Source of the DNA: an uncultured Alistipes sp.
GTDB lineage: Bacteria > Bacteroidota > Bacteroidia > Bacteroidales > Rikenellaceae
Length of the DNA stretch: 37,116 nucleotides
NCBI GenBank assembly: GCA_944321765.1
Contig: CALUMQ010000040.1
Coordinates: 1 to 37,116 of the forward strand
Reading direction: 5' to 3'
This document shows positions 166 through 28,060 of the stretch, in pieces (the first letter of the stretch is position 1; the number at the start of each line of letters is the position of its first letter). The translations under genes were made by a program, and so were the position numbers. Under the pieces are notes generated by a model. That model saw only the letters and a program-made list of their open reading frames with translations. It had not been told where the DNA came from and made no database searches.

Positions 166-187
166 TTTGTCATACATTTGTCATACA
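166..187. repeat. 11-bp tandem direct repeat TTTGTCATACA x2
   Basis: Two exact contiguous copies lie just upstream of the integrase -7 element, about where a -33 element or activator site would be. A helical-turn period beside a promoter suggests a regulator or excisionase/integrase arm site; this is inference. Confidence 0.5.
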
Positions 188-210
188 TCGGCCGAATTTT
201 CGAAAACTTC

Positions 211-7232: not shown

Positions 7233-7253
7233 TTAACACTTGAAAGATTAGGT

Positions 7254-8903
7254 ATGAAAAGAAATATCATTTATTGTTTGAGCGGTCTGGCGGCGGTGAT
7301 GACCTTCGCCTCGTGCAGCGACTTTCTCGATCAGAATCCCGATCTTCGTACGACGCTGGACTCCGAGGACAAGATTGCCAATATCCTGGTCTCGGCCTAC
7401 GTGAGCGGTTCGGGCAGCTATCAGGTCGTTGCCGAGCTCTCGTCGGACAACGTCTGCGACCGGGGCATCACCAAGAACTACTCCCAGCTTCTGGAGGATA
7501 TCTACGAGTGGTCGGACAACGTGACCACGGGCAACGACTCGCCGCGCAACATCTGGAGCGCGAACTACAGCTGCATCGCCAATGCGAACCAGGCCCTGTC
7601 GGCCATCGAGGATATGGGCGGACCCGTCACCACGAGCCTCAAGGCCAGCAAGGGCGAGGCGCTGCTCTGCCGGGCCTATGCGCACTTCGTGCTGGCCAAC
7701 CTCTTCTGCATGCCCTACAACCCCGACACGGCGGATCAGTATCTGGGCATCCCCTACATGGACCACGCCGAAACGGACCTCAACCCGCAGTATGACCGCG
7801 GCACGCTGAAGGAGGTTTACGAGAAGATCGGCAAGGATATCGAGGAGGGTATTCCCTTGATCGACGATACCTCCTACTCGGTTCCCAAATACCACTTCAA
7901 CTACAAGGCGGCCTGCTGCTTCGCTTCGCGCTACTACCTCTTCATCCACGACTGGGACAACGCGATCAAGTATGCGGGCATGGCGCTGACCTCCAACCCG
8001 ACGTCGCTGATGCGCGATTACGACGCGATTGCGGCCATTCCCAACAGTTCGAGTCGTCACCAGGCCTACGTACAGTCGTCGAGCTCGGCCAACTTCCTCG
8101 TGCAGGCCGCCACGTCGACCAGCGGCACGCTCTTCGGATGGTACTCCACGGGCGGACGCTATGCGCACGGCAAGCTGCAGGGAACCTATGAGACCGTTGC
8201 CCCGAAGTACGGCGGTCCGTGGGGCACGGGCGTGCAGTTCAAGGTGGGGCACACGGTGCTCTCCTCGTCGGGCAAGTACATCCTGCCGCGCATCTGGTAT
8301 ACCTTCCAGTATACGGATCCGGTGGCCGGAACGGGTTATTCGAAGGGCGTATCGGTGCTCTTCACCACCGAGGAGGCGCTGCTGAACCGCGCCGAGGCCT
8401 ACGTGATGAAGATGCAGGAGGATCCGAGCGCCGTGGAGAGCGCCTTGGCCGACATGAACATGTATGCCTCGAACCTCTTCTCTTCGGGCTTCACGCCGAT
8501 GACCGAGGAGTCGATCATCAAGTGGGCGAAGGAGACCTACAAGGACTACTCGCAGCTCTACGTGGGCAAGACCTCGGACACGAGCCCGCAGACGCTCAAC
8601 CCCAAGAAGGAGCTCTTCGCCGCACCGTACAACGCCCTGGAGAAGGGCGGTCCTCAGGAGAGCATGCTCCAGGCCGTGCTGTTCCTGCGTCGCTACCAGT
8701 TCCTGCACGAAGGCATGCGCTGGTTCGACACGCGGCGCTTCGGCATCACGGTTTACCGCTATACGCTGGACGAGGATGACGAGACCGTGCTGCAGATTAC
8801 CGACAAGATCAGCGACGAGAACGGGACTCCCGATCCGCGCCGAGCTCTGCAGCTGCCGTCCGACGTCATTGCGGCCGGTCTGACCCCCAATCCGAGAAAC
8901 TAA
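7254..8903 (+). CDS. SusD/RagB-family nutrient-binding lipoprotein
   Basis: This surface lipoprotein forms the lid that captures substrate over the SusC barrel. The 549-residue product has a lipobox (TFASC, Cys21) followed by the typical SusD start SDFLDQNPD. The TPR-like helical features of the family are seen in YSCIANANQALSAIE and KGEALLCRAYAHFVLANLFC. The C-terminal part contains a LFLRRYQFLHEGMRWFDTRRFG segment equivalent to the conserved SusD region. It lies between SusC and the metallohydrolase with gaps of 21 and 15 bp, so it is surely co-transcribed. Ligand specificity is unknown. Confidence 0.93.
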   Translation: MKRNIIYCLSGLAAVMTFASCSDFLDQNPDLRTTLDSEDKIANILVSAYVSGSGSYQVVAELSSDNVCDRGITKNYSQLLEDIYEWSDNVTTGNDSPRNIWSANYSCIANANQALSAIEDMGGPVTTSLKASKGEALLCRAYAHFVLANLFCMPYNPDTADQYLGIPYMDHAETDLNPQYDRGTLKEVYEKIGKDIEEGIPLIDDTSYSVPKYHFNYKAACCFASRYYLFIHDWDNAIKYAGMALTSNPTSLMRDYDAIAAIPNSSSRHQAYVQSSSSANFLVQAATSTSGTLFGWYSTGGRYAHGKLQGTYETVAPKYGGPWGTGVQFKVGHTVLSSSGKYILPRIWYTFQYTDPVAGTGYSKGVSVLFTTEEALLNRAEAYVMKMQEDPSAVESALADMNMYASNLFSSGFTPMTEESIIKWAKETYKDYSQLYVGKTSDTSPQTLNPKKELFAAPYNALEKGGPQESMLQAVLFLRRYQFLHEGMRWFDTRRFGITVYRYTLDEDDETVLQITDKISDENGTPDPRRALQLPSDVIAAGLTPNPRN

Positions 8904-8918
8904 AAACGCAAGCATATT

Positions 8919-9800
8919 ATGAAACGATTTTTGATCATACTTTTCTCTTCGGTGGCGTTGCTCTCCCTGGCGGCCTGCTCGAACGACGATGATCTGAGCT
9001 CGACGAGTGTGATCCGGGAGTCCACGACGGAGGAGAACGATTTCGACCGCTGGCTGCAGCGCAACTACGTGGAGCCCTACAACATCCAGTTCAAGTACCG
9101 TTTCGAGGACATCGAGTCGGACATGAGCTACTACCTGACGCCGGCCAGCTACGAGCAGTCGATCGCCATGTCGAAGCTGGTGCTTCACATGTGCCTGCAG
9201 GCCTATGACGAGATCACGGGCAGCACGGACTTCATCAAGGCCTACTTCCCGAAGATTCTCTACCTGGTGGGTTCGTACGCCTACAAGACCAACGGATCGG
9301 TGGTGCTGGGAACGGCCGAGGCCGGCGCGAAGATCACGCTCTACAACGTCGACGGACTCAATACCGCGACGGTCAACGCGAAGACCTCGTACTTCAAGAC
9401 CCTTCACCACGAGTTCGGACACATCCTCAACCAGACGAAGCCCTATTCGACGGATTTTGCCGAGATTTCCGGCCCGGACTACGTTCAGGACCAGTGCTTC
9501 GACGTCTATAAGACGGACGAGTCGGCGCTCAAGGACGGTTTCATCTCGCCCTATGCGTCGAAGGCCGACAGCGAGGATTTCGTGGAACTCATCTCGCTCT
9601 ATGTCAACCGCACGGCCGACGAGTGGGAGGATATGCTGACCACGGCCGGGAGCAGCGGACGTGAGAAGATCGAGTCCAAATTCGAGATCGTCTACAACTA
9701 CATGAAGAACAGCTGGAACATCGATCTCGACAAACTGCGCGAGATCGTGCTGCGCCGTGCTGCCGAGGCTCCCAATCTTGATTTCGATTCGCTCGAATAA
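8919..9800 (+). CDS. Substrate-import-associated zinc metallohydrolase lipoprotein
   Basis: This 293-residue lipoprotein (lipobox SLAAC, Cys20) carries an HExxH zinc motif HEFGH at residues 164-168, preceded by FKTLH. A downstream acidic candidate third ligand lies in SEDFVELISLYV. It matches the Bacteroidetes family of HExxH lipoproteins encoded beside SusC/SusD (putative zinc-binding metallopeptidase). It is probably tethered on the cell surface or in the periplasm, trimming a proteinaceous substrate for the SusCD pair. Proteolytic activity follows from the motif and is not proven; the substrate is unknown. The 15 and 29 bp gaps to its neighbours indicate one operon. Confidence 0.85.
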   Translation: MKRFLIILFSSVALLSLAACSNDDDLSSTSVIRESTTEENDFDRWLQRNYVEPYNIQFKYRFEDIESDMSYYLTPASYEQSIAMSKLVLHMCLQAYDEITGSTDFIKAYFPKILYLVGSYAYKTNGSVVLGTAEAGAKITLYNVDGLNTATVNAKTSYFKTLHHEFGHILNQTKPYSTDFAEISGPDYVQDQCFDVYKTDESALKDGFISPYASKADSEDFVELISLYVNRTADEWEDMLTTAGSSGREKIESKFEIVYNYMKNSWNIDLDKLREIVLRRAAEAPNLDFDSLE

Positions 9801-9829
9801 CCGAAAGTTTTCAGACAAACGCTACGCAT

Positions 9830-11698
9830 ATGAAAAAAACAACCATCATATCATTTCTGACGCTTCCCTTCCTGCTCACTTCGTGCTGGTTCGAGGAGGA
9901 GGACTTGTTCGACAAGTCGGCCTCGGAGCGCATCGAGGCGGCGAAGGCCGAGGCGAAAACGGCCCTCGAGAGCGCTGCGAACGGATGGCATGTACGCTAC
10001 TTCCCCTCGTCGACGCAGGAGTTCGGAGGTTACAACGTTCTCTTCAAGTTTGCCGACGGACAGGTTACCGTCGCTTCCGAGACGGAGACCAATCCCGCGA
10101 CCGCCGTCACGAGCCTCTACTCCCTGGGCGAGGATCTGGGTGTGACGCTCGATTTCGATACGAAGAATTCGGTGATCAACTACTTCGTGCACCCGCGCAA
10201 CCCCGACGGACTGGGTTCCGACTACAAGGGCATGGAGGGTGACTACAAGTTCATGGTGATGGAGGCCTCGCCGGAGGAGATCCGCCTGCGTGGCATCATC
10301 TCGGGGAACACCTACCTGCTGACGCCCCTGCCGGCCGATGCCGACTGGGCCACCGAGGTGGAGACCTACCAGAACTGCGCCGAGGACATGGAGTTCTTCT
10401 CCTATACGTGCGAGGTGAAAGGCAAGTCGTACCCCGTGACGCGCACCGACCGCCGCTTTACGATCAAGGTCGACGACCAGACCACGGTCTATGCGCCGTT
10501 CATCTATACCAAGACGGGTATCAGCCTCTACGAGCCGATCACCATCGACGGCGTTACGGCCCAGGACTTCACCTTCAAGGACGAGTACTACTTCGAGGCG
10601 TCGGACGGCGCGGACTTCAAGTTCATGACTCCGGAGCCGATCCGTTCGGACATCACGTTCAATCTGACGGTTCCCGAGGAGGAGAAGACCTACCGGAGCG
10701 TGCAGGTTGACATCCAGCCGTCGAAGGATACGGAGTACTACTACGTCACCACGATGACGCGCACGGAGTTCGAGTCCTACCGCACGGACAAGAAGCTGAC
10801 GCAGGCGCTGCTGGCGATAGTCAACAGCAACATCGGCTCGGGCGACGATCCCGAGGTGGTTGCCCAGAGCCAGCTCTATCAGGGCGCCAGCTCCTACACG
10901 CTCGATTACCCGAGCTTCTACGAGGAGTACGTGGCCATCGCCTTCGGCTGCGCCATTGCCGACGGGGCGTTTGTCGCGACGACCGACGTCACCTCGGTGC
11001 CCTTCTCGGTAGACGCGTCGCTGCTGCCGGCCGAGACGAACGAAAATTACAAGCGCTGGCTGGGCAAGTGGGCCGTGACGAGTACGTCGTCCGAGACGAG
11101 CGGCACCTCCTACACGTTCTACATCACCATCAAGCCGAACGTCATCAACTCGAACTTCAAGATCACCGGATGGGGCTATACGACCTATGCCGATCTGGTG
11201 AACATCGCGGCGACCTACTCGGGCGGCAACCTCCGCGTGACGGGTAACCAGGCCAATCTCTATACGACCTCGACCGGAACGCTCTATCTGGCCAACCGAT
11301 ATGTCGACCGGAACGATCCCGGAAGTTTCGGTATTGTGAACTCGACCAACGCCTCCAACCTGGTGGCCACCTACAGTTCGGAGGAGAAGGGCAAGGCCAC
11401 GATGGTCGGCCGCAACGGATCGCTGACCAGCGGCGTTTCGTTCACGATCACCTGCCTGGAGCTCTATGAGCGCCGCACGGGTTCGACGTCGTACTATTAC
11501 CTGCCGGTAGCCTCCGGATATACCTCGCTGGACTACTTCGTAGGACCCTACACGATGGTACAGCTTGTCGACGCCGAGGGCAACGAGCTCTCGCCGGCGG
11601 CCTCCGCGGCAACGAAGCAGCAGCTGCCGGCTCATCCGGCCCTGTTGATGAACGCCGCCGCACCTGCCGGTTCGGAGCGGTGCGAGGCGATCGAATAG
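9830..11698 (+). CDS. DUF4302-family lipoprotein
   Basis: This 622-residue lipoprotein (lipobox LLTSC, Cys19) starts with the DUF4302 pattern: EEEDLFDKSASERIEAA, then NGWHVRYFPS and EFGGYNVLFKFADG. That domain accompanies SusC/D-metallohydrolase operons in Bacteroidetes and has no known biochemical role. The C-terminal portion (about 370-600) is beta-rich, with repeated Tyr/Thr strands (SYTFYITIKPNVINSNFKI), and may be a second, binding-type domain. The protein is probably surface-exposed and part of the same uptake complex. It is the last gene of the operon; a strong terminator follows 20 bp after the stop. Confidence 0.82.
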   Translation: MKKTTIISFLTLPFLLTSCWFEEEDLFDKSASERIEAAKAEAKTALESAANGWHVRYFPSSTQEFGGYNVLFKFADGQVTVASETETNPATAVTSLYSLGEDLGVTLDFDTKNSVINYFVHPRNPDGLGSDYKGMEGDYKFMVMEASPEEIRLRGIISGNTYLLTPLPADADWATEVETYQNCAEDMEFFSYTCEVKGKSYPVTRTDRRFTIKVDDQTTVYAPFIYTKTGISLYEPITIDGVTAQDFTFKDEYYFEASDGADFKFMTPEPIRSDITFNLTVPEEEKTYRSVQVDIQPSKDTEYYYVTTMTRTEFESYRTDKKLTQALLAIVNSNIGSGDDPEVVAQSQLYQGASSYTLDYPSFYEEYVAIAFGCAIADGAFVATTDVTSVPFSVDASLLPAETNENYKRWLGKWAVTSTSSETSGTSYTFYITIKPNVINSNFKITGWGYTTYADLVNIAATYSGGNLRVTGNQANLYTTSTGTLYLANRYVDRNDPGSFGIVNSTNASNLVATYSSEEKGKATMVGRNGSLTSGVSFTITCLELYERRTGSTSYYYLPVASGYTSLDYFVGPYTMVQLVDAEGNELSPAASAATKQQLPAHPALLMNAAAPAGSERCEAIE

Positions 11699-11916: not shown

Positions 11917-14085
11917 ATGAAACGACTGTTGATGCTCGTTTGTGGCCTTTTGTGCCTGCACGGTGTGAAGGCCGAAGATTATTTTGTGAGGACGAAGAAC
12001 TCCGTGATGGTGCTCAGCGGCGAAAAGGGGAGCCGTCTCAACTTCGTCTACTACGGCCCCGCGGCCACGCTCGACGAGATCCGTGCCACCGGCAACGGCC
12101 TCTGGTGGAATGCCTACCCGGCCTTCGGAACACACTGCACGGCCGAACATGCGCTGCTCGTCCAGCAGGCCGACGGCGACAATGCGCTGGAGCTGGTCCT
12201 CGACCAGGTGCGCGAATACCGGGAGGGCCCGGCGCAGGTGACGGAGTTCCAGCTGAAGGATCGCGTGCATCCGCTCCGTGTGGCGGTCCGCTACAAGGCC
12301 ATTCCCGATGTGGATGTCATCAAGGTCTCCACGACGATTACCAACGATGCGCGGAAGCCGGTGACGCTCCAGCGTTTCGCCTCGGCCTACCTGCCCGTCA
12401 AGTCCAACGAGCTGTGGCTCTCGTACCTGGTCGGCGGCTGGGGCGCCGAGTGCCAGCTGGTCGAGGAGCCGCTGCACCGCGGCCGCAAGGTGGTCGGGAA
12501 CCACGACGGAGCCCGTACGTCGTTCGTGACGCACCCCTCGTTCATGGTCTCGCGCGGCGAGCCTGACGAGCAGCGGGGATTCGTCATCGGCGGCACGCTG
12601 CTCTGGACGGGCAACTACGAACTCTCATTCCTCCGGGAGAGCAACGAGAGCGTGCTGGAGATCGTTGCGGGAATCAATCCCGAGGCTTCGGACTACCGGC
12701 TCGCCTCGAAGGAGAGCTTCGAGACTCCCGAACTGGTGCTGACCTGCAGCACCGAGGGCAAGGGGGGCGTGAGCCGCAACCTGCACCGCTGGGGCCGCCA
12801 GTACCAGATCATCGGCGGCACGCAGCCGCGCGACATCCTGCTCAACAGCTGGGAGGGCGTCTACTTCGACGTCAATCAGGAGGGCATGGAGCGTATGATG
12901 AAGGAGTTTTCGGAGATCGGCGGCGAGCTCTTCGTGATGGACGACGGATGGTTCGGCGAGAAGTATCCCCGCAACAACGGCTCCACGTCGCTCGGTGACT
13001 GGACGGTGTGCCGCGAGAAGCTGCCCCAGGGTATCGGCGGGCTGGTCGACGCGGCCAAGAAATACGGCATCAAGTTCGGCATCTGGATCGAGCCCGAGAT
13101 GACCAACGCGAAGAGCGAACTCTATGAGAAGCATCCCGACTGGGTGCTGCGCCAGCCCGACCGTGAACCGGTCATGGGCCGCGGCGGCACGCAGCTGATG
13201 CTCGACATGAGCAATCCCGCGGTGCAGGATCATGTCTTCAACGTCGTGGACCGGCTCATGCAGGAGAATCCCGATATCTACTACATGAAGTGGGATGCCA
13301 ACTTCTCGATCGAGAATGCCGCGTCGCTCTACCTCCCGAAGGAGAAGCAGTCGCACCTCTACATCGAGTACCACCGCGGGTTGCAGAAGACCCTGCAGCG
13401 CATCCGCGCGAAGTATCCCGACCTGGTGATCCAGCTCTGCGCCAGCGGCGGCGGACGCATGAGCTACGCCTACTTCCCCTATTTCAACGAGTGCTGGACG
13501 AGCGACAACACCGATGCCCTGCAGCGTCTCTACATCCAGTGGGGCGTGTCGCAGTACTATCCGTCGAACGTCATGGCCGCGCACGTCAGCGCTTCGCCCA
13601 ACCATCAGACGGGACGCGTGACGCCGTTGAAGTTCCGCTTCGACGTGGCGATGACCGGACGTCTGGGCATGGAGATGAAGCCTTCGGATCTGTCGGCCGA
13701 GGAGCGCGAATTCGCCAAGCGCGCCATTGCCACCTACAAGGATATCCGTCCGGTCGTTCAGCAGGGGGACCTCTACCGGCTCATCTCGCCCTATGACAAG
13801 AAGCACTACGTGTCGCTGATGTACGTGACGCCCGAGAAGGATCGTGCCGTCTACTTCCTCTATCGCACGCAGTTCATCCGGAGCATTCCCGCCGAGTCGC
13901 GCGTTCTCCAGGGGCTCGATCCCGACCGCAACTACCTCTTCCGCGAGCTGAATCCCGAGCGTCCCGACAAGAAGGGTCCGCTCGACGGCAAGGTGATCAG
14001 CGGACGGGTGCTCATGGAGCAGGGCTTCTACCTGGAGCTGAACAAGGAGCTGACGAGCGCCGTGTATGAGCTGATTGCGCAGTAG
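11917..14085 (+). CDS. Alpha-galactosidase, GH36 family, secreted
   Basis: The enzyme hydrolyses terminal alpha-galactosyl residues such as those in raffinose-type sugars or galactomannan side chains. The 722-residue product has a signal peptide (MKRLLMLVCGLLCLHGVKA), an N-terminal beta-sandwich to about residue 300 and a (beta/alpha)8 barrel starting LLNSWEGVYFDV. Family motifs are FVMDDGWFG, GIWIEPEMTN, and YMKWDAN with predicted nucleophile Asp460. CWTSDNTDA carries the predicted acid/base Asp530. Length fits the 700-750 residue GH36 group. It is flanked by terminators and forms a single-gene unit; an AraC-type regulator follows in the same direction. Localisation is probably periplasmic. 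Confidence 0.93.
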   Translation: MKRLLMLVCGLLCLHGVKAEDYFVRTKNSVMVLSGEKGSRLNFVYYGPAATLDEIRATGNGLWWNAYPAFGTHCTAEHALLVQQADGDNALELVLDQVREYREGPAQVTEFQLKDRVHPLRVAVRYKAIPDVDVIKVSTTITNDARKPVTLQRFASAYLPVKSNELWLSYLVGGWGAECQLVEEPLHRGRKVVGNHDGARTSFVTHPSFMVSRGEPDEQRGFVIGGTLLWTGNYELSFLRESNESVLEIVAGINPEASDYRLASKESFETPELVLTCSTEGKGGVSRNLHRWGRQYQIIGGTQPRDILLNSWEGVYFDVNQEGMERMMKEFSEIGGELFVMDDGWFGEKYPRNNGSTSLGDWTVCREKLPQGIGGLVDAAKKYGIKFGIWIEPEMTNAKSELYEKHPDWVLRQPDREPVMGRGGTQLMLDMSNPAVQDHVFNVVDRLMQENPDIYYMKWDANFSIENAASLYLPKEKQSHLYIEYHRGLQKTLQRIRAKYPDLVIQLCASGGGRMSYAYFPYFNECWTSDNTDALQRLYIQWGVSQYYPSNVMAAHVSASPNHQTGRVTPLKFRFDVAMTGRLGMEMKPSDLSAEEREFAKRAIATYKDIRPVVQQGDLYRLISPYDKKHYVSLMYVTPEKDRAVYFLYRTQFIRSIPAESRVLQGLDPDRNYLFRELNPERPDKKGPLDGKVISGRVLMEQGFYLELNKELTSAVYELIAQ

Positions 14086-14118
14086 CCGCCGGCGCTCCGG
14101 GCCGAAACCCGGTGGAAG

Positions 14119-14182
14119 GATCCCGACCTTTCGGGGAGGGCGATTCGAAGAGTCGTTCCCGCCCGAAGGCCGGGATCTTTTT
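14119..14182 (+). terminator. Intrinsic terminator after the alpha-galactosidase gene
   Basis: GATCCCGACCTTTCGGG pairs with CCCGAAGGCCGGGATC through a long, slightly interrupted stem, followed by TTTTT at 14178-14182. Confidence 0.85.
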
Positions 14183-14345
14183 CCGGTGCGGCCTCCCGTC
14201 TCGTTCCGCACTCTCCCGCGCTCCGGGACCGGCATTCTGTCCCTGCCGTCCGCCGCGGCGCCCCGATATGGATACACATCCCGGTTTTTTGTATCCGGAT
14301 TACGGTTTGTCGCCCGTGCGTGCCGCACAATTCCCCGGGAAACAC

Positions 14346-14353
14346 TATTTTTG
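14346..14353 (+). promoter_or_regulatory. Candidate -7 element for the AraC-type regulator
   Basis: TATTTTTG matches TAnnTTTG, 54 bp before the start codon. No good -33 TTTG at the expected spacing. Confidence 0.4.
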
Positions 14354-14407
14354 TCACATGCCCCGGATCCCGTTGATCCGGACCTCGAAACCCGAAAAAC
14401 CTTTGCC

Positions 14408-15310
14408 ATGAAGGACGAGATTCTTGCTGTCGACACGATCGACCAATACAACAAACTCTTCGGACAGGAGACCCTGCATCCACTGGTGAGCGTCGTGGAC
14501 TTCTCCCGCGCGCAGCCCCACACCTACGGGCGCATGAACCTGGGATTCTATGCCGTCTTCCTCAAGGAGGTGAAGTGCGGCGACCTGCGCTACGGCCGCC
14601 AGTATTACGACTATCAGGAGGGTACGGTGGTCTGCATCGCCCCCGGGCAGGTAGTGGGTGTCGAATCCTCCGGCGAGCCGATCCAGCCCCGGGGCTTCGG
14701 GCTGATCTTCCACCCCGATCTGATCCGCGGCACGCAGCTGGGGCGCGAGATCCGCAGCTATTCGTTCTTCTCGTACGAATCCCGCGAGGCGCTGCACCTC
14801 TCGGAGGCCGAGCGGAGCATCTTTCTCGACTGCCTGGAGAAGATCCGCGCAGAGCTGCACCACGACATCGACAAGCATTCGAAACGATTGATCGTCCGCA
14901 ACATCGAGCTGCTGCTCGACTACTGCACGCGCTTCTACGACCGGCAGTTCATCACGCGTGCCGACGTGTGTCACGACACGGTGAGCCGTTTCGAGGGGTT
15001 GATCGACGACTATTTCCGCTCGGGGGAGGCCGAACGCCAGGGGGTGCCGACGGTGCGCTATTTTGCCGACAAGGTGTGCCTGTCGCCCAACTATTTCGGC
15101 GACCTGATCAAGAAGGAGACCGGAAAGACGGCGATCGAATACATCCAGCTCAAGATGCTTGCGGTGGCCAAGGAGCGGTTGGCCGGGACGACGCAGACCG
15201 TCACGGAGATTGCCTACGGGCTTGGGTTCCAGTATCCGCAGCACTTCAGCCGGTTGTTCAAGAAGAACACCGGGCTGACGCCCAACGAATACCGCCGGGG
15301 TCTCAACTGA
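14408..15310 (+). CDS. AraC-family transcriptional regulator
   Basis: This 300-residue protein has a cupin-like sensor half (about 1-150, with FKALIFH-type segment RGFGLIFHPDLI) and a C-terminal AraC double helix-turn-helix (about 200-300). The latter shows VRYFADKVCLSPNYFGDLIKK and the signature VTEIAYGLGFQYPQHFSRLFKK. It resembles the common Bacteroidetes group that begins MKDEIL-VDTIDQYNKLFG. The start at 14408 is chosen over a longer open frame from 14075 because the upstream part covers the alpha-galactosidase terminator and looks non-coding. Its target is unknown. Its position suggests it may act on the alpha-galactosidase gene, but the two are separated by a terminator and probably transcribed separately. 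Confidence 0.9.
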   Translation: MKDEILAVDTIDQYNKLFGQETLHPLVSVVDFSRAQPHTYGRMNLGFYAVFLKEVKCGDLRYGRQYYDYQEGTVVCIAPGQVVGVESSGEPIQPRGFGLIFHPDLIRGTQLGREIRSYSFFSYESREALHLSEAERSIFLDCLEKIRAELHHDIDKHSKRLIVRNIELLLDYCTRFYDRQFITRADVCHDTVSRFEGLIDDYFRSGEAERQGVPTVRYFADKVCLSPNYFGDLIKKETGKTAIEYIQLKMLAVAKERLAGTTQTVTEIAYGLGFQYPQHFSRLFKKNTGLTPNEYRRGLN

Positions 15311-15811: not shown

Positions 15812-16030
15812 TGTTCGTTTCGAAATGACGGAGTTTCGATTCGCTCGCCCCTCCCGTCCGGAACGCTCTCCGGACCCGCTTTTTCTGCGAATGCTTGCCT
15901 CGATGTCGGATCTTCGGCCCGCTTTTTCTCCCGGAGAGAGGCAACGGCCGAAAATTCTGCAACCAAATTTTTTGGCAGAAAAATTATAAAAATCGGACAC
16001 AATTTTGTTTTTCAAAGAAAAAGATTTAAA

Positions 16031-16078
16031 TTTGAAACAAGTTCGAAACAGATTCGAAACACCATCAACGTATTTTTG
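16031..16078 (+). promoter_or_regulatory. Candidate Pho-box promoter of the phosphoesterase-SusCD operon
   Basis: Three 11-bp-phased repeats TTTGAAACA (16031), TTCGAAACA (16042) and TTCGAAACA (16053) end 9 bp before TATTTTTG (16071-16078), a -7 element with no normal -33. A fourth half-match overlaps the -7 in phase (16075). 11-bp direct repeats replacing the -35/-33 region are typical of PhoB/OmpR-family activators. The phosphate transporter gene has the same arrangement. The leader to 16315 is about 230 nt; CTCCTGC (16146-16152)/GCAGGAG (16171-16177) may form a hairpin within it. Confidence 0.6.
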
Positions 16079-16315
16079 AAACGCTTTTATGAACAGAATT
16101 TGATCCGCCGCTGACTCGAAACCCTAAAAATCAACGTGTGAAGACCTCCTGCCGCCATGACCCGCCGGCTGCAGGAGCATGACTCTTTGGCGGCCGGGAC
16201 TCCGTGAATCCGCTTCCTCCCGGGAGACGGGATATTCGGAAAACCCCGGGAATCACACGATGTATTATTAAATAGGTATTCGGATTCCGGAGGGACCATT
16301 CAAAAAAATTAAAAA

Positions 16316-18274
16316 ATGAGAAAGTTTACGCCCTTTTTGCTGGCCGTTCTGGGTGTGGTGCTGTTGCTGGCCTGCAGTTCGAGTGATAAGGAGACGCCTG
16401 CGGGCGACAGCTTCGACGTGTCGTTTACGCTGCCCGCCTCGGTCGACGTCTCGCTGGGAGGAACCTGCGTTTTTACTGTGAAAGACGGCAAGGCTCCGTT
16501 GACCTCCGACTCTTTCGTTTTGGAATCCCAGGCCGGGGTCTCCTACCTTTGCCCCATCGTCGCAAGCTCGTCGGAGGAGTTCTCCGTGCAGCTCTCGAAG
16601 GAGTGCGTGGCGGGGTATTACAACGTCTTCATCAAGCGTGAGCAGCGGAAGAAATCCTTCGGACGCCTCTACCTGAACATCGTCGAGGAGCTGCCCGAGG
16701 ACTTCACGCCCGACGCCGGGACGACCGTCTACGGCCGGATTACCGCCGGCGAGGTCGGCGTGCCGGGTGTCGTGGTCTCCGACGGCGTCGAGGTTACGGC
16801 CACCGACGCGGAGGGCATCTACCAGCTGAAGTCCGCCAAGAAGTGGGGCTACGTCTTCATGTCGGTGCCCAGCGGCTACGAAGCCTCGTCGCAGGGCGTG
16901 CTGCCCGTGCTGCACAAACTGCTGAAGAGCGATGCCCGGACGCTCGAACGTGTCGACTTCTCGCTGACGAAGATCAGCGGTCAGGACAACTGCAAGATCT
17001 TCTTCCTGGGTGACATGCACCTGGCCAACCGCACGGGCGACACCCGTCAGTTCGGGGAGTTCACGGCCGATCTGACCGACTACATGTCGGCGCACAGCGG
17101 TGAACTGATGTACGGCGTGACGCTCGGCGACATGACCTGGGACCTCTACTGGTATTCGAACAACTTCTACTTCCCGGAGTACCTCGAACTGGTCAACTCC
17201 CAGCTCAAGGGGCTGCAGATCTTCCACACGATGGGCAACCACGACAACGACATGAACACCACGTCGGACTACGCCGCGGCGGTGAAGTACGTCAACGACA
17301 TCGCGCCGTCGTACTATTCGTTCAACATCGGCAGGCTGCACTTCATCGTGCTCGACGACATCGACTGCAGCGGCTACGACGGAACCAGCTCGCGGAACTA
17401 CAAGAAGAGCCTCTCGGCCGAGCAGCTGGCGTGGCTGAAGAAGGATCTGCAGTATGTGGACAAGTCGACGCCGCTGGTGGTGACCCTGCATGCGCAGCTC
17501 TTCTATCCCACGTCGACCGGCTTCAAGATCGACCACGACGCCACGAGCACCGAGCAGCTCTTCAGCCAGCTCGAAGGGTATGAGGTGCACTTCGTCACCG
17601 GACACACGCACATGATGTTCAACGTGACGCCGCAGGATGAGATCGTCGCCGGGCGCAACTTCCACGAGCACAACGCCGGATCGGTCTGCGGCTCGTGGTG
17701 GTGGTCGGGCTACCTGACGCCGGGCGTGCACCTGGGGCAGGACGGCTCGCCGGGCGGCTACTCCATCTGGGACATCGCGGGCACCGACATCGAGTATCGC
17801 TACAAGGCGACCGGCTGGTCCGAGGATTACCAGTTCCGCAGCTACGACCTGAACCGCGTGTCGTTCTCGGCGGCCGACATCGCGCAGTGCCCGTCGTCGG
17901 TGGCCGGGAAGTTCGACAAGTACATCAGTGCCTATTCGGGAGGCGGCAAGAACGAGGTGCTCATCAACATCTGGAACTGGAACCGCAACTGGACGCTGAC
18001 GGTTGTCGACGAAAACGGGAAACAGCTCGACTATACGCCCGTGTGGGCCTACGACCCGCTCCATATCGCCGGACTGACCGTTCCGCGGTTCAACAACTCG
18101 GGACTCACCTCGACGCCGAACTTCATCACCGAGAACTTCACGCACTTCTTCAAGGTCACGGCCGACGACGCGAATGTCGATCTGACGATCACCGTGCGCG
18201 ACGAGTTCGGCAACACGTGGACCGAGCAGATGGCCCGCCCGAAGGAGTTCTCCGTCGACGCCTACCGCAATTGA
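16316..18274 (+). CDS. Calcineurin-like metallophosphoesterase lipoprotein
   Basis: This 652-residue lipoprotein (lipobox LLLAC, Cys20) shows the three-part Bacteroidetes layout. An N-terminal beta domain (about 110-215, TVYGRITAGEVGVPGVVVSDG) is followed by the catalytic metallophosphoesterase core (about 225-440) and a C-terminal beta domain (about 465-645). Metal-site motifs are complete: GDMH (Asp233, His235), GD (Asp272), GNHD (Asn308, His309), LHAQ and GHTH (His430, His432). It should cleave phosphomonoesters or diesters at the cell surface or in the periplasm. It opens an operon with SusC, SusD and a BACON lipoprotein, suggesting that dephosphorylation is coupled to uptake. The exact substrate is unknown. 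Confidence 0.88.
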   Translation: MRKFTPFLLAVLGVVLLLACSSSDKETPAGDSFDVSFTLPASVDVSLGGTCVFTVKDGKAPLTSDSFVLESQAGVSYLCPIVASSSEEFSVQLSKECVAGYYNVFIKREQRKKSFGRLYLNIVEELPEDFTPDAGTTVYGRITAGEVGVPGVVVSDGVEVTATDAEGIYQLKSAKKWGYVFMSVPSGYEASSQGVLPVLHKLLKSDARTLERVDFSLTKISGQDNCKIFFLGDMHLANRTGDTRQFGEFTADLTDYMSAHSGELMYGVTLGDMTWDLYWYSNNFYFPEYLELVNSQLKGLQIFHTMGNHDNDMNTTSDYAAAVKYVNDIAPSYYSFNIGRLHFIVLDDIDCSGYDGTSSRNYKKSLSAEQLAWLKKDLQYVDKSTPLVVTLHAQLFYPTSTGFKIDHDATSTEQLFSQLEGYEVHFVTGHTHMMFNVTPQDEIVAGRNFHEHNAGSVCGSWWWSGYLTPGVHLGQDGSPGGYSIWDIAGTDIEYRYKATGWSEDYQFRSYDLNRVSFSAADIAQCPSSVAGKFDKYISAYSGGGKNEVLINIWNWNRNWTLTVVDENGKQLDYTPVWAYDPLHIAGLTVPRFNNSGLTSTPNFITENFTHFFKVTADDANVDLTITVRDEFGNTWTEQMARPKEFSVDAYRN

Positions 18275-18364: not shown

Positions 18365-21300
18365 ATGAGAGTATTTAAACCCTTGGTTTTATCGTTGCTT
18401 CTGGCAGTCGGGGGGGGGATTTTGACCCTTTCGGCGCAGAACAGAACGATATCCGGAAAAGTCCTCGATGCACAGCAGCAACCCCTCGTGGGCGTGGCTG
18501 TTCTGGTCGACGGTACCTCCAAAGGCGTCACGACCTCCGAGACCGGAGAGTTTACGCTTGACGTCTCTTCCGACCCCGTGACGCTGCAGGTATCCTGCCT
18601 GGGTTATATCGACCAGAAGGTGAACGTTCCGGCCAGCCAGTCGATCGTCACCGTCTACATGCAGGAAGACGCCATCATGCTCGACGAGGCCGTAGTCATC
18701 GGTTACGGTACGCAGAAGCGTGTCAACCTGACGGGCGCCGTGGCGACCGTCGGGAGCAAGGATCTCGAAAACCGCGTCGCACACTCGCTGACCAACATGC
18801 TGCAGGGTTCGGTGGCCGGTCTGAACGTCACCACCTCGTCGGGAGGTCCGGGCTCCACGGCCTCGATCAACATCCGTGGTGTGACGTCGATCAACGAGGC
18901 CGACCCGCTGGTGCTGATCGACGGTGCGGTGGGTGACCTGAACCGCATCAACCCCAACGACGTGGAGTCGATCTCGGTGATCAAGGATGCCTCGGCAGCC
19001 GCCGTGTACGGAGCCCGCGCCGCCTTCGGTGTGATCCTCGTGACGACCAAGTCGGGTTCAGCGAACGACGGAAAGGCAACGGTCCGTTACAGCGGCCGCT
19101 TCGGATGGGAGGAGCCCACGACGTCGACCAACTACGAGAACCGCGGTTACTGGTCGGTCTACACGGTCAACAAGTTCTGGCAGGCCGACTCGGGCACGAA
19201 CTATGTCGACTACACGGACTACGACATGCAGCAGCTGCTGGCCCGCGTGAACGACAAGACGGAGCATCCCGACCGTCCGTGGGTGGTCGAGGATACGCGC
19301 AACGGCCGCAAGCAGTGGGTCTACTACGGCAACTACGACTGGTGGGACATGCTCTTCCGCCAGCGCCGTCCGGTGCAGCAGCACGACATCTCGATCAGCG
19401 GCGGCACGAAGGACATCACCTACATGGTCTCGGGCGCCTATGACCGTCAGGAGGGTATGCAGCGCGCGATTCCCGACGTCTACAACAAGTACAACCTGCG
19501 TTCGAAGCTCGACTTCAAGATCAACCGCTGGGCATCGCTGTCGAACAACACGTCGTTCTTCGCCTCGAAGTACTCCTCGATCGGCGACGGCAGCGTGCAG
19601 AACACCATCGCCTACAGTGCCCGCCACGCCCTGGCCTGCTTCCCGATGCAGAACCCCGACGGATCGTGGCTCTACGGCACGCCGTATCTGAACTACAAGG
19701 TGGCCAACGGCCGTCACATCATGCTCAACGAGGGTACGCACCGCAACGTGGACCGTCGCAGCGACTTCTCCAACACGACGCGTCTGGTGATCACGCCGTT
19801 CAAGACGCTGAGCATCACCGGCGACTTCACCTACCGTCTCTACCAGGACCGCAACACGAGCCGCAGCTCGGCGATGTACTACCGCGAGTATCCCGACGGA
19901 GAGCTGCTCTCCTACGCCACGGGCGCCGGACAGGACCAGCTCGACGAGGCGGTGAACACCTACAACTACTACTCGACGAACGTCTATGCCAACTACGACG
20001 AGACCTTCGGTGACCACCACGTGTCGGGAACCGTCGGCTTCAACTACGAGAAGTGGGCCAGCAAGAACGTCTCGGCCTGGGGCCAGAACCTTCTGTCGGT
20101 GGACCTCGACGACCTGAACCTCGTCGGACAGAACTCCGACGGCGAGACGCTGACGGGTGTCGGCGGAGGTCAGAACGACTACGCCCTGGCCGGCTTCTTC
20201 GGACGTGTCAACTACGACTACAAGGGCAAGTACCTCGTGGAGGTCAGCGCCCGCTACGACGGAACGTCGCGCTTCCTGGGCAGCTCCCGTTGGGGATGGT
20301 TCCCCTCGGCATCGGTCGGATGGCGTATCTCGGAGGAGTCGTTCTTCGAGCCCGCGCGCAAGGTGGTTGACAACCTGAAGCTGCGTGCCTCGTTCGGAAG
20401 CCTGGGCAACCAGATCGTCAAGAACGGCGGCTCGCAGGTCTACTACACCTACCTGCGGCTGGTTTCGGTCAACGAATTTGCCGGCTATACCTTCGGCGAG
20501 GGCAGCACCATGGGCCGCTATTCGTCGCTGGGCGCTCCGGTGGCCTCCGACCTGACGTGGGAGACCGCCCAGCAGTGGGACCTGGGTCTCGACCTGTCGA
20601 TGTTCAACAACCGACTCAGCGTGACCGGCGACCTCTACATCCGCGACACGAAGGACATGCTTACCGACGGCAAGGCCCTGCCGGGCGTCTACGGCGCCGA
20701 CTCGCCCAAGATGAACGCCGCCGACCTGCGCACGAAGGGTTACGAGCTGACCGTCAACTGGCGCGACCAGTTCCAGCTGGCCGGCAAGCCCTTCAGCTAC
20801 AACGTGGGCTTCAACCTGAGCGACTACAAGAGCGTCATCACCAAGTACGACAACCCGAAGAAGTCGCTCTCGATGGATTACTACGAAGGCATGGAGATCG
20901 GCGAGATCTGGGGCTTCAAGACCGACGGATTCTTCAAGACCACCGAGGAGGCCCAGGCCTATGCCAAGGAGGTCGACCTGAGCTACAGCTCGAACCGTCT
21001 GACGGGCGGCTGGCAGGCCGGAGACCTGAAGTTCCTCGATATCAACAATGACGGTATCTGGGGCATCGGCAGCAACACGGTCGACGAGCCGGGTGACCGT
21101 ACGATCCTCGGCAACTCGCTGCCGTCGTTCTCCTACGGTATCAACGCCGGCATCCAGTGGTACGGATTCGACGTGTCGGTCTTCTTCCAGGGCACGGGCA
21201 ACCACTACTGGTATCCCCACGGACAGGCGATGCCGTTCTGGGGCTGCTACTCCTATCCCTACCTGAGCTACCTGCCGATGAACTTCATCGACAAGGTCTG

Positions 21301-21646
21301 GGCCGAGGACAACACCGACGCCTACTTCCCGCGCGCCCGCGCCTACTCGGCCTCGGGCGGCTACCTGAGCAAGGTCAACGACCGCTATCTGCAGAACATC
21401 CGCTACCTGCGTCTGAAGAACCTTACGGTGGGCTATACCATCCCCGCGGCGCTGACGCGGAAGGCGGGTATCGACCAGATCCGCATCTACTTCTCGGGCG
21501 AGAACCTCTGCTACTGGTCCCCGCTGAAGAAGAATACGCTGTATGTCGATCCGGAGGCCGCCTTCAACCGCAGCTCCGACGTTGACAACAACGCCTTCTA
21601 CCCGTGGGCTCGGACGTTCATGTTCGGTATAGACATCACTTTTTAA
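18365..21646 (+). CDS. SusC/RagA-family TonB-linked outer-membrane transporter
   Basis: This 1093-residue outer-membrane importer has a signal peptide (MRVFKPLVLSLLLAVGGGI.., cleaved near LSAQ) and a CarboxypepD_reg domain (about 26-100, ISGKVLDAQQQPLVGVAVLVDG). The classic VVIGYGTQKR-NLTGAV junction precedes the plug (about 115-235, SINIRGVTSINEADPLVLIDG and SISVIKDASAAAVYGARAAFG). The barrel ends FMFGIDITF. Codons 16-18 lie in a run of nine G, which could slip and shift the frame. It follows the phosphoesterase after 90 bp and precedes SusD by 21 bp. Substrate is inferred to be phosphorylated, from the neighbouring enzyme and the Pho-like promoter. Confidence 0.95.
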   Translation: MRVFKPLVLSLLLAVGGGILTLSAQNRTISGKVLDAQQQPLVGVAVLVDGTSKGVTTSETGEFTLDVSSDPVTLQVSCLGYIDQKVNVPASQSIVTVYMQEDAIMLDEAVVIGYGTQKRVNLTGAVATVGSKDLENRVAHSLTNMLQGSVAGLNVTTSSGGPGSTASINIRGVTSINEADPLVLIDGAVGDLNRINPNDVESISVIKDASAAAVYGARAAFGVILVTTKSGSANDGKATVRYSGRFGWEEPTTSTNYENRGYWSVYTVNKFWQADSGTNYVDYTDYDMQQLLARVNDKTEHPDRPWVVEDTRNGRKQWVYYGNYDWWDMLFRQRRPVQQHDISISGGTKDITYMVSGAYDRQEGMQRAIPDVYNKYNLRSKLDFKINRWASLSNNTSFFASKYSSIGDGSVQNTIAYSARHALACFPMQNPDGSWLYGTPYLNYKVANGRHIMLNEGTHRNVDRRSDFSNTTRLVITPFKTLSITGDFTYRLYQDRNTSRSSAMYYREYPDGELLSYATGAGQDQLDEAVNTYNYYSTNVYANYDETFGDHHVSGTVGFNYEKWASKNVSAWGQNLLSVDLDDLNLVGQNSDGETLTGVGGGQNDYALAGFFGRVNYDYKGKYLVEVSARYDGTSRFLGSSRWGWFPSASVGWRISEESFFEPARKVVDNLKLRASFGSLGNQIVKNGGSQVYYTYLRLVSVNEFAGYTFGEGSTMGRYSSLGAPVASDLTWETAQQWDLGLDLSMFNNRLSVTGDLYIRDTKDMLTDGKALPGVYGADSPKMNAADLRTKGYELTVNWRDQFQLAGKPFSYNVGFNLSDYKSVITKYDNPKKSLSMDYYEGMEIGEIWGFKTDGFFKTTEEAQAYAKEVDLSYSSNRLTGGWQAGDLKFLDINNDGIWGIGSNTVDEPGDRTILGNSLPSFSYGINAGIQWYGFDVSVFFQGTGNHYWYPHGQAMPFWGCYSYPYLSYLPMNFIDKVWAEDNTDAYFPRARAYSASGGYLSKVNDRYLQNIRYLRLKNLTVGYTIPAALTRKAGIDQIRIYFSGENLCYWSPLKKNTLYVDPEAAFNRSSDVDNNAFYPWARTFMFGIDITF
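18410..18418. repeat. G9 homopolymer within the SusC signal-peptide codons
   Basis: Nine consecutive G encode Gly16-Gly18 in the reading frame as given. Loss or gain of one G would abolish the transporter. Such tracts are contingency loci in other bacteria; function here is untested. Confidence 0.7.
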
Positions 21647-21667
21647 CCATCAAAGTTGCGATCATTC

Positions 21668-23458
21668 ATGAAACGATTTATCATATTGGCCGTGGCCTTG
21701 ACTGCGGGGCTGTCGAGTTGCGATATTCTCGATACGAAGCCGCTGAGTCAAATAACGCAAACGGACTATTTCAAGACCGAGACTGAACTCCAGCTGTTCA
21801 CCAACCCGTTGTACAACAACATGCTGGACAAGAATCCCTATGACGATCAGAGCGATCTTCTGGTCTGCCAGACCCTCTCCGACGAGATTCTCGGCGGCGA
21901 GAAGCGTACCGTTCCCAACACGGGCGGCGGATGGACGTGGACCGACCTGCGGCGCATCAACACGCTGCTGGAGTACATCGACCAGTGCGAGGACAAGGAT
22001 GCCGTGACGCACTATACGGCACTGTCGCGCTTCTTCCGTGCCTACTTCTACTTCGAAAAGGTGAAACGCTTCGGCGACGTGCCCTGGTACGACGTGCAGC
22101 TGGGCTCGGCCGACGAGGCGCTCTACAACCCGCGGGATTCGCGCGAGCTGGTGATGACGAAGATGATCGAGGATATCGATTTCGCCATCCATGAACTTCC
22201 GAGCGAGGTGAGCACCTACCGTGTCAACCGCTGGGCGGCGCTGGCGCTCAAGGCCCAGTTCTGCCTCTATGAGGGCACCTACCGCAAGTACCACAACGTG
22301 CTTATCGAGGGCGCCAACGACTACACCTACTACCTGGATCTGGCCGCCAAGGCTGCCGGGGAGATCCTGACCGACGGTCCCTACAAACTCTACTCGACGG
22401 GCAACCCCGACACGGACTACATGACGCTCTTCGCACAGGAGGATGCCAGCCCCGACGAGTACATCCTGGCCATCAAGTTCGACTACGGTCTGGCCATTCA
22501 CCACAACGCCACGGCCTTCACGCTGGTCCCGACGCAGGGTCGCCCGGGCTACACGCGCAAGATGGTGAACATGTACCTGATGAAGGACGGCACGCGCTTC
22601 ACCGACCAGACGGGCTGGCAGGAGAAGTCCTTCATCGAGGAGACGCAGAACCGTGACCCGCGTCTGTCGCAGTCGATCCGTACGCCGGGCTACACGCGCA
22701 TCGGCAAGACCGAAGTGCTGGCTCCCGACCTCGGATGCTCGGTGACGGGCTATCAGCCGATCAAGTTCGTGCAGAACCCCGACGATTCGGGCGGCAACGT
22801 TGACCGCAACGACCGTTCGACGTGCGACATTCCGGTCTACCGTCTGGCGGAGGTGATGCTCAACTACGCCGAGGCGAAGGCCGAACTCGGCACGCTGACG
22901 CAGGACGACCTCAACATCTCGATCAACAAGATCCGCGACCGTGTGGACATGCCGCACCTGAACCTGGCTTCGGCCAACGCCAACCCCGACTGGTACCTTT
23001 CGTCGGCGGACTACGGATTTACGAACGTCTCGGGCGCCAACAAGGGCGTGATCCTCGAGATCCGCCGCGAGCGCGCCATCGAGCTGATCCAGGAGGGCAC
23101 GCGCTACGAGGATCTGGTACGCTGGAAGGCCGGACCGTGCCTCGACCAGGCGCTGACGGGCATGTACTTCCCGGGCGCCGGCGAGTACGACCTGACGGGC
23201 GACGGCAAGGCTGACCTGATCCTCTACAATGAGGGCACGGCCAAACCGGAGGCCGGTGACGGCGTCTATGTTTACCAGATCGGTACGGAGATCCTGCTCT
23301 CGGGCGGCACGCGCGGCTACGTCTCCTACCACAAGAACATCGAGCGCACCCCCTACAACGAGGAGCGCGACTACCTCTACCCGATTCCCATCAACGAGCG
23401 TACGCTCAACAAGAACCTTACGCAGAATCCGGGCTGGAACGACGGACTTTCATACTAA
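21668..23458 (+). CDS. SusD/RagB-family nutrient-binding lipoprotein
   Basis: This 596-residue partner of the preceding SusC has a lipobox GLSSC (Cys18) and the SusD start DILDTKPLSQITQTDYFKTE. Helical family segments (LLEYIDQCEDKDAVTHYTAL, RFFRAYFYFEKVKRFGDVPW) are followed by the conserved C-terminal block EIRRERAIELIQEGTRYEDLVRW. ATG 21668 is preferred over an in-frame TTG at 21656 because it yields a standard signal peptide (MKRFIILAVALTAGLSSC). Intergenic gaps of 21 bp upstream and 26 bp downstream support a single transcript. Confidence 0.94.
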   Translation: MKRFIILAVALTAGLSSCDILDTKPLSQITQTDYFKTETELQLFTNPLYNNMLDKNPYDDQSDLLVCQTLSDEILGGEKRTVPNTGGGWTWTDLRRINTLLEYIDQCEDKDAVTHYTALSRFFRAYFYFEKVKRFGDVPWYDVQLGSADEALYNPRDSRELVMTKMIEDIDFAIHELPSEVSTYRVNRWAALALKAQFCLYEGTYRKYHNVLIEGANDYTYYLDLAAKAAGEILTDGPYKLYSTGNPDTDYMTLFAQEDASPDEYILAIKFDYGLAIHHNATAFTLVPTQGRPGYTRKMVNMYLMKDGTRFTDQTGWQEKSFIEETQNRDPRLSQSIRTPGYTRIGKTEVLAPDLGCSVTGYQPIKFVQNPDDSGGNVDRNDRSTCDIPVYRLAEVMLNYAEAKAELGTLTQDDLNISINKIRDRVDMPHLNLASANANPDWYLSSADYGFTNVSGANKGVILEIRRERAIELIQEGTRYEDLVRWKAGPCLDQALTGMYFPGAGEYDLTGDGKADLILYNEGTAKPEAGDGVYVYQIGTEILLSGGTRGYVSYHKNIERTPYNEERDYLYPIPINERTLNKNLTQNPGWNDGLSY

Positions 23459-23484: not shown

Positions 23485-25005
23485 ATGAAATTGGTAAAAC
23501 AGATAACGGCTTCGGTTCTCGCAGCGGTGACCTTGTGCGGCCTGTGGAGCTGCAACGAGGATGAGGACCAGCTTTCGAAGGCGGTGCTGGCGAGTGCCAC
23601 GACGCTGAGCTTCGAGGCGCAGAACGCCTCGGAGAAGCTGATCACCGTGTATTCCGATGCGAACTGGATCTCGGAGGTTCCCGAGTGGGTGACGATTTCG
23701 CCCGCGCAGGGGAGCGCCGGAACGACGGAGGTGACGGTTTCGGTGACGGACAACATGCGCGACGGCGCCGAGGACAATCCCCGCAAGGCGACCCTCGTAT
23801 TCAAGGGCAGCACGCTGGCCAGCCGTGCCGAGGTGATCATCTCGCAGAGCGGCGACAAGTACCGTGACGTGAAGGACTACAAGCCTTCGGAGATCGCGGC
23901 GCTGGCCGACGAGAGCGTGGTGTCGATTCCCGACGTGATCGTCGTGGCGGTGACCACCGACGGATTCATTGTCAGCGACGCCGAGAACTCGGGCAATGCC
24001 TACATCATCAACTCCACGCCGGTGAGCGTCGGCGACCGTCTGTCGCTGCGCGGCACGAAGGGCACCGACACGCAGTCGCTGGCCATCGTGGAGTGCGACG
24101 AGCTGGAGATCCTCTCGACGGGCGGCACCGTTACCTACCCGACGGCCGAGGATATCACCTCGAAGGTTGACAGCTACAATCCCAAGGATCGCACCTATAT
24201 TTCGGTGGACGGTGTGCTGAGCGGCTCGAACATCATTGTCGAGGGTGCGCAGTATTCGGTTGCCGTGACCAACGCTCCCGAGAGCATGGGCATTGCGGCG
24301 CTCAACGGCCACAAGGTGACGGCCAAGGGTTACTTTGCCGGTGTGGCGGCTCCCGTGATCCGCATCACGCTGACGTCGCTCGAGGACAAGGGTCTCTACA
24401 AGGAGATCTACTATGCCGAGGACTTCGAGTGGCTTGATCCGTGGGCGCTGGCTGGTGACAACAAGGGAAAGCAGGCCGGACGTACGGTCGAGGACGACAA
24501 TCTTTCCGCCTACTGCCCGCAGCTGCCCACTCCGAAGGTCGACGGCGTTTCGGCACTCGATGCTCTGGAGGCCAGGGGATACGAGTTCCTGCGTGTGACG
24601 ACCAAGACCGAGGGTGAGTGCATCTACCTGCAGCAGAACTACCTCAAGTTCGGCAAGACCTCCTACCAGGCAGGTATCGTGCTTCCGGCGATGGACAACG
24701 TTCCGGCCGGCACGAAGCTGACGCTGTCGTTCGACTGGTGCCCGATGCGTCAAACTGATGGTAAGATCGACCCGGTTAACCTGATTGTAATCATTTCCGA
24801 GGGCGACAATGAGATTGTCTCCTACGATATTCCCGAATCGGGCTGGGAGAATGGTCACGTACTGGAGTGGATCCGCGCCGAAGTAACCATCGAGGGCATC
24901 GACATCACCCCCGAGACGCGCATCACGATCCGTCAGACCCAGTGGCCCGCAGCGACGGCCAACCGCTGGTTCCTCGACAACATCGAGCTTGCGAAATCGC
25001 TCTGA
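23485..25005 (+). CDS. BACON-domain surface lipoprotein
   Basis: This 506-residue lipoprotein (Cys23 after TLCGLWS) has a BACON-type Ig-like domain (about 37-122: LSFEAQNASEKLITVYSDAN, then WVTISPAQGSAGTTEVTVSV and ASRAEVIISQSG). A beta-rich middle (about 130-290) looks like an OB-fold region of the kind seen in SusCD accessory lipoproteins. The C-terminal part (about 300-506) has jelly-roll features (FEWLDPW..., LTLSFDWCP, ending RWFLDNIELAKSL), typical of binding modules. No catalytic motif is visible. As the last gene of the operon it is probably an extracellular substrate-binding accessory protein. The ligand is unknown. Confidence 0.8.
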   Translation: MKLVKQITASVLAAVTLCGLWSCNEDEDQLSKAVLASATTLSFEAQNASEKLITVYSDANWISEVPEWVTISPAQGSAGTTEVTVSVTDNMRDGAEDNPRKATLVFKGSTLASRAEVIISQSGDKYRDVKDYKPSEIAALADESVVSIPDVIVVAVTTDGFIVSDAENSGNAYIINSTPVSVGDRLSLRGTKGTDTQSLAIVECDELEILSTGGTVTYPTAEDITSKVDSYNPKDRTYISVDGVLSGSNIIVEGAQYSVAVTNAPESMGIAALNGHKVTAKGYFAGVAAPVIRITLTSLEDKGLYKEIYYAEDFEWLDPWALAGDNKGKQAGRTVEDDNLSAYCPQLPTPKVDGVSALDALEARGYEFLRVTTKTEGECIYLQQNYLKFGKTSYQAGIVLPAMDNVPAGTKLTLSFDWCPMRQTDGKIDPVNLIVIISEGDNEIVSYDIPESGWENGHVLEWIRAEVTIEGIDITPETRITIRQTQWPAATANRWFLDNIELAKSL

Positions 25006-27990: not shown

Positions 27991-28003
27991 ACGCTGCAAA
28001 GAT

Positions 28004-28038
28004 ACGGGGCCGTCATCTCATCGGAATGACGGCCCCGT
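28004..28038. other. Perfect 13-bp hairpin after the phosphate transporter gene
   Basis: ACGGGGCCGTCAT (28004-28016) is exactly complementary to ATGACGGCCCCGT (28026-28038), 22 bp after the transporter stop. It has no T-run on either side, so it may protect the mRNA end or terminate inefficiently. Confidence 0.6.
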
Positions 28039-28060
28039 TGCATTTGTGTTACATTTGCCG

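Follow-up and report, generated by a model that had tools for sequence, protein, structure and literature searches.

A putative Pho box in front of a phosphoesterase-SusCD operon of an uncultured Alistipes

In an uncultured Alistipes sp., an array of three direct repeats stands at a fixed distance from the promoter of an operon encoding a metallophosphoesterase, a SusC/SusD pair and a BACON-domain protein. Judged from its conservation and from its likeness to the sites that precede phosphate transporters or adjoin phoBR in the genus, this array is likely to be a Pho box, and the operon a PhoB-activated SusCD system for the uptake of organophosphates during phosphate starvation.

The repeat array and its operon

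The window analysed is the whole of a 37-kb contig (C40) from a 2.31-Mb assembly of 40 contigs that is 88.6% complete. On its plus strand, unit 1 of the array, TTTGAAACA (16031–16039), is followed by two copies of TTCGAAACA as unit 2 (16042–16050) and unit 3 (16053–16061). The units, which read T(T/C)GAAACA, thus begin at exact 11-bp steps, and they were delimited from the sequence itself, a search of the genus and a comparison of four species. Nine bp past the array lies TATTTTTG (16071–16078, plus strand), the -7 element of a promoter designated P2, which has no -33 element, as inspection of the sequence revealed no TTG 19–21 bp upstream of the -7 element. The initial annotation had described three 11-bp-phased repeats ending 9 bp before a -7 element devoid of a -33, and its positions agree with the sequence. 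A further in-phase repeat, TTTGAAACG (16075–16083, plus strand), which was absent from that annotation, starts 44 bp past unit 1 and overlaps the P2 -7 element.

The first gene of the operon (16316–18274, plus strand) encodes a metallophosphoesterase lipoprotein with MetallophosN, Metallophos and MetallophosC domains according to Pfam, in which the lipobox cysteine (Cys20) and a complete dinuclear metal site are invariant in all 22 aligned orthologues. It is followed on the same strand by a SusC-like TonB-dependent transporter (18365–21646) and a SusD-like lipoprotein (21656–23458), both identified by Pfam and structure look-up, and by a BACON-domain protein (23485–25005) whose match of 23.4 bits is slightly under the Pfam cut-off of 25. 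Pfam matched no CAZyme domain in any of the four genes. Among named organisms, the nearest relative of the operon belongs to 'Candidatus Alistipes faecavium', which would place the organism in Alistipes or close to it. With regard to function, comparison of a metallophosphoesterase model (pLDDT 83.5) with PDB folds gave Ig-like and partial matches only and was uninformative, and a sequence search yielded a weak purple-acid-phosphatase match and nothing else; the look-ups for SusC and SusD returned general SusCD homologues with no hint of a substrate. Positions 3927–11698 hold a separate second SusCD operon, which also encodes a Peptidase_Mx1 metallopeptidase and a DUF4302 protein.

The exact two-unit form of the array occurs once in the 2.31-Mb assembly, and its reversed control does not occur at all. 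When up to three mismatches were allowed, the three-unit form was found in four of 180 genomes of the genus (the organism's own, G054, G065 and G146), each time in front of the operon, and the reversed pattern gave one match in the same 180 genomes. The three other site-bearing genomes represent other species, with phosphoesterase identities of 67–79%. Across the four species, 21 of the 24 unit columns of the 47-bp site are invariant, as are five of the six columns of the P2 -7 element, but none of the 15 spacer columns; the lengths of the spacers are constant though their letters vary, and the 9-bp gap is the same in all four. Chance repeats are ruled out by this conservation together with the genome searches. 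Given the conserved columns and the constant spacer lengths, a protein-bound site that is read at the promoter would be the natural explanation of the pattern.

PhoB and the Pho boxes of phosphate transporters

A minus-strand block of the window carries, in this order, phoB (31920–32600), the sensor kinase gene phoR (30494–31942; NF053855, 517 bits, cut-off 500) and pitA (28061–30328), a PHO4-family phosphate transporter by Pfam, and so links PhoB both to PhoR and to a Pi transporter. The regulator, labelled PhoB-like by the initial annotation, matches NCBI's curated Bacteroides PhoB model (NF053854) with 354.9 bits (cut-off 270). Its recognition helix is DRTVDVNITRLRRKIG, and the PhoB helix reads RT(I/V)DVNITR(L/M)R in all 41 rows found (some loci overlap), whichever type of box adjoins. 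The pitA promoter contains the box GTGAAACA-N3-TTGTCATC-N3-TTGTAACA-N9-GACCTTTG (30356–30402, minus strand), recognised from the sequence and ranked by the motif model described below. The 11-bp steps and the 9-bp gap previously proposed for this promoter hold; its -7 element starts with GA and not with TA.

Elsewhere in the window, Pho-box-like units ATGCAACG, CCGTCATT and ATGAGATG follow pitA (27997–28043, minus strand), where they overlap a perfect 11-bp hairpin stem and stop 9 bp before TATCTTTG; a 216-aa gene of no known function comes next. A similar post-pitA site is present in G054 (locus L175, about position 2025, minus strand; score 21.4). Near the contig start, TTGTCATACATTTGTCATACAT (167–188, plus strand) is a near-perfect Pho-box repeat of the E. 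coli style, and the nearest ORF downstream of it (365–772) has no Pfam match.

In the genus, the usual pitA layout is TTGTAACA-N3-TTGTAACA-N9-TAnnTTTG with a weaker third unit in front. It is seen at many pitA promoters and is absent from others, e.g. those of L103, L108, L112, L113, L117 and L121. Scanning the genome and its relatives for the motif had been suggested by the initial annotation as a check. With up to three mismatches, the TTGTAACA-type pattern gave 63 matches in 55 of the 180 genomes, and the reversed pattern gave 11. Of the 43 distinct matches examined, 33 stand in front of a Pi transporter gene: for 28 this is a pitA homologue identified by blastp, for one a pit-like gene recognised from its translation (L133) and for four an nptA gene, named from its N-terminal sequence and in L156 additionally by Pfam. 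The other ten had no Pi transporter downstream or no gene nearby. pitA is divergent from phoBR in 10 of 30 pitA loci. Among 30 nptA loci from a family search, a box was seen by eye in three (a weak one in L176, L177, which is the L156 gene, and L180), and three further nptA boxes (L134, L141 and L151) came out of the box search itself. Because of its position, its architecture and its linkage to the regulator, we infer that the layout of 11-bp units, a 9-bp gap and TAnnTTTG represents the Pho box of the genus.

To rank the operon site, we built a motif model with pooled units and a -7 element from 38 pitA sites, leaving out that of the window, and six nptA sites, all aligned or chosen by eye. 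The scan covered 442,617 bases of the organism's own genome on both strands (883,210 positions), and the remaining 81% was covered by pattern search only. The operon site ranked first (42.4) and the window's pitA box second (36.8). Equally high scores at unrelated promoters, which the initial annotation had named as a possible refutation, did not appear in the sampled bases, the third-ranked score being 18.4. When 45 Pi-transporter sites were left out and scored, they ranged from 8.3 to 56.3 with a median of 42.2, which places the operon site at the 56th percentile and those of the other three species (41.1, 31.9 and 41.1) at the 49th, 11th and 49th. Control models with repeat periods of 9, 10, 12 and 13 reached at most 15.2, and the mirrored model 9.7; with shifted gaps, one match of 30.1 was obtained for a gap of 8 bp, and the others did not exceed 20.1. 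In four of five motif models the operon site came first among the sampled own-genome positions. In the strictest, which was trained on pitA only and scored unit by unit, it came third (15.8), and a C29 site that is not evidently a promoter scored 17.0. The region of a second pitA paralogue (C26, L172), which served as background, was not represented among the top hits. Of 55 named phosphoesterase loci scored, some with little upstream DNA, only L003 and L004 exceeded a score of 20 immediately in front of the operon; a match of 25.6 in L052 is located downstream of the operon.

The operon sites and the pitA boxes differ in the core of their units. GAAA is found in all 12 units of the operon sites of the four species, unlike units 2 and 3 of the pitA boxes, in which GTAA prevails (35 of 39 and 38 of 39, respectively). 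Such a preference would be expected if the array were used not by PhoB but by another OmpR-family regulator favouring GAAACA, and two more OmpR-type regulators are indeed encoded in the organism's own, 88.6% complete genome (on C33 and C37), with similar ones in the three sister genomes; the recognition helix of the C33 type reads RTIDVHIRKLR. We nevertheless consider this reading unlikely. GAAACA-unit boxes lie between the divergent phoBR and nptA genes in L151 and L180, the former combining TTGTAACA with TTGAAACA, and in L138 (G034; 1501–1536, minus strand) a TTGAAACA/TTGAAACT box that keeps the 9-bp gap is flanked by phoBR on one side and a porin-like gene on the other. Moreover, a separate regulator should have a regulon of its own, yet pattern searches found no second GAAACA-type array in the organism's own genome. 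GAAA units also occur in four of six nptA boxes and as unit 1 in four of 39 pitA sites, including that of the window, and the pitA box of sister genome G065, which is outside the 39, has ACGAAACG as unit 1. The nptA boxes, the phoBR-adjacent GAAACA boxes and the GAAA pitA units thus bridge the difference between GAAA and GTAA. The box beside phoBR in L141 is TTGCAACA/TTGTAACA and not of the GAAACA type.

The porin-like gene of L138, a predicted beta-barrel with a BBP2-like match of 23.2 bits (Pfam cut-off 26.2), is a possible further PhoB target. In L010 (Heminiphilus) and L057 (a Muribaculaceae relative), an inverted repeat, GAAAC-N7-GTTTC, replaces the direct repeats at the same operon; it is situated just past the -7 element of the operon, no more than about 320 bp ahead of the metallophosphoesterase gene, and hints at another regulator whose half-site is similar.

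Taken together, the architecture shared with the transporter boxes, the motif ranking, the match of the regulator to the curated PhoB model and the GAAACA boxes adjoining phoBR support the Pho-box reading first put forward in the initial annotation, and PhoB would be the protein that binds the array.

Two promoters and the direction of regulation

Promoters of the Bacteroidetes follow a -33/-7 consensus. A canonical example, which had not been annotated before and is here called P1, consists of TTTG (16004–16007), N19 and TAAATTTG (16027–16034) on the plus strand (16004–16034), and its -7 element overlaps Pho-box unit 1. P1 is present in all four species with a spacing of N19 or N21, and dinucleotide shuffles of the upstream DNA gave p values of 0.0013–0.0068 for each; since two of the species are near-identical upstream, three independent lineages stand behind this conservation. 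The distance from the P1 -7 element to that of P2 is exactly 44 bp in all four. The operon is therefore probably served by two promoters, P1 being the basal one and P2 the one of PhoB type. As unit 1 covers the P1 -7 element, PhoB on the array may close P1 besides activating P2.

In Bacteroides fragilis, PhoRB controls Pi genes, the pstC promoter is bound by PhoB (BF1576), and a Na/Pi transporter shows a PhoB-dependent, 101-fold fall under Pi limitation (PMC3547664). Together with the overlap at P1, this decrease means that the direction of regulation is not to be assumed. It is conceivable that P1 is the working promoter and P2 weak or dead, and that at low phosphate phosphorylated PhoB sits on the P1 -7 element and the first transcribed bases and represses the operon. 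In all four species P1 has both the -33 and the -7 element, and the related operons of L005 and L006 have one similar promoter and no Pho box; the B. fragilis transporter would provide a parallel. However, the P2 -7 element (five of six columns) and the exact 9-bp gap have been kept while the spacer has not, and their geometry is that of the pitA and nptA boxes. Closing a phosphoesterase and an importer in phosphate hunger would, in addition, make little physiological sense, and we regard repression as improbable.

Activation by PhoB, the most probable reading, would proceed as follows. When phosphate is scarce, PhoR would phosphorylate PhoB, the two being encoded about 14 kb from the site. 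PhoB would then line up in tandem on the three 11-bp units, stand in for the -33 contact that P2 lacks and recruit RNA polymerase to P2, and PhoB on unit 1 would simultaneously shut P1. The induced metallophosphoesterase, SusC, SusD and BACON proteins would capture, cleave and import an organophosphate, for which a glycerophosphoryl compound is the likeliest candidate. More tentatively, the arrangement might be a promoter switch, in which one PhoB array occludes a housekeeping P1 and fires P2 four 11-bp steps downstream. Such a switch could have been grafted onto an existing organophosphate operon, turning glycerophosphate carbon foraging (from P1, as in the relatives without a Pho box) into phosphorus scavenging (from P2) in this Alistipes lineage.

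Control by the AraC-type regulator encoded at 14075–15310, with the repeats as its operator in the manner of sugar PULs, was rejected as highly improbable: although this is the regulator gene nearest to the operon, it directly follows a GH36 gene, and no homologue was found within 10–15 kb upstream in L003 and G054, both of which have the repeats (about 1.5 kb upstream was covered in the fourth species).

Substrate and relation to known systems

Of the 55 homologous loci in Bacteroidales, 12 have a GlpT homologue in their flanking DNA. The GlpT model TIGR00712 gave 707.9 bits in L007, over its cut-off, and 501.9 in L009, under it. In Proteiniphilum (L007; 1316–8857 and 19000–21359) the operon lies within a glycerol-3-phosphate set, together with an alkaline phosphatase and Porin_O_P; the set comprises a DeoR regulator, a DAO/DAO_C protein of the glycerophosphate oxidase/dehydrogenase type, GlpT, a MIP channel and an FGGY kinase of the glycerol-kinase type. 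In L009, where glpT is located ahead of the operon, a weak Pho-box-like match (20.5; 8386–8432) stands in front of glpT. In the four Pho-box species, the neighbourhood of the operon yielded no GlpT homologue (the upstream DNA of L004 being short), and none of the Pho-box scores near the glpT homologues of these four genomes exceeded 14 (12 loci of 13 matches). A neighbour in L035 is xylulokinase-like, so a glycerol-phosphate setting is not shared by all loci; GlpK-like matches of about 25% are also present in L038, L042 and L045. Because of the proximity of GlpT in the Bacteroidales loci, a glycerophosphoryl compound is a likely substrate, and a reasonable guess from the gene neighbourhood.

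In E. coli, the Pho box consists of 11-bp direct repeats with the consensus CTGTCATA, which replace the upstream hexamer of the promoter. The Alistipes site likewise has 11-bp repeats at a fixed distance, here 9 bp, from a -7 element that lacks an upstream partner, and it shows the unit preference of the genus. It differs in that its units read T(T/C)GAAACA and do not conform to CTGTCATA, those at pitA being mostly TTGTAACA, and in having a Bacteroidetes -7 element; the pitA box of the window contains one TTGTCATC unit.

The closest precedent for the operon is PusCD of Flavobacterium. In F. johnsoniae, phosphate depletion induces the SusCD pairs of PUSI and PUSII, next to which phosphodiesterases are encoded (PMC8115612). 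There a SusCD-like pair is combined with a phosphodiesterase or phosphatase and assigned to phosphorus acquisition, and PUSI has a PF00149 enzyme, as here; the Alistipes operon likewise has a SusC/SusD pair, a co-located phosphoesterase and no CAZymes. The evidence in Flavobacterium comes from expression and proteomics, and here from the promoter sequence, and the main text of that report does not use the term Pho box (PMC8115612). The Alistipes operon further differs in its MetallophosN/C lipoprotein, its BACON protein and its gut niche, which is presumed from relatives, and the two systems are likened by gene content and not by orthology. In Riemerella anatipestifer, PhoP is an OmpR-family regulator of the low-phosphate response with an ArcA-like DAP-seq motif in which TTTAACA is most conserved (PMC9603813). 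It belongs to the same phylum, and one of its tested targets is a TonB-dependent receptor; the organism is, however, a duck pathogen of another class, and aerotolerance genes are stressed in the account (PMC9603813). For B. fragilis, the text available gives neither a box sequence nor a SusCD phosphate operon (PMC3547664). In the open-access literature searched, by title, beginning of the abstract or passages, we found no Bacteroidales PhoB box and no PhoB-controlled gut SusCD system.

Phosphorus uptake by SusCD systems at low phosphate is thus known, and what is unusual here is the GAAACA variant of the box and the overlapping second promoter. For gut Bacteroidales, the comparison provides a Pho-box definition suited to genome-wide scans, which is roughly T[TC]G[TA]AA[CT]A per 11 bp, three times, 9 bp before TAnnTTTG, and it suggests that a SusCD operon of the gut takes up phosphorus and not sugar. 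For many SusCD pairs a substrate has yet to be assigned, and a Pho box before such a pair would be a direct and testable clue to what it takes up.
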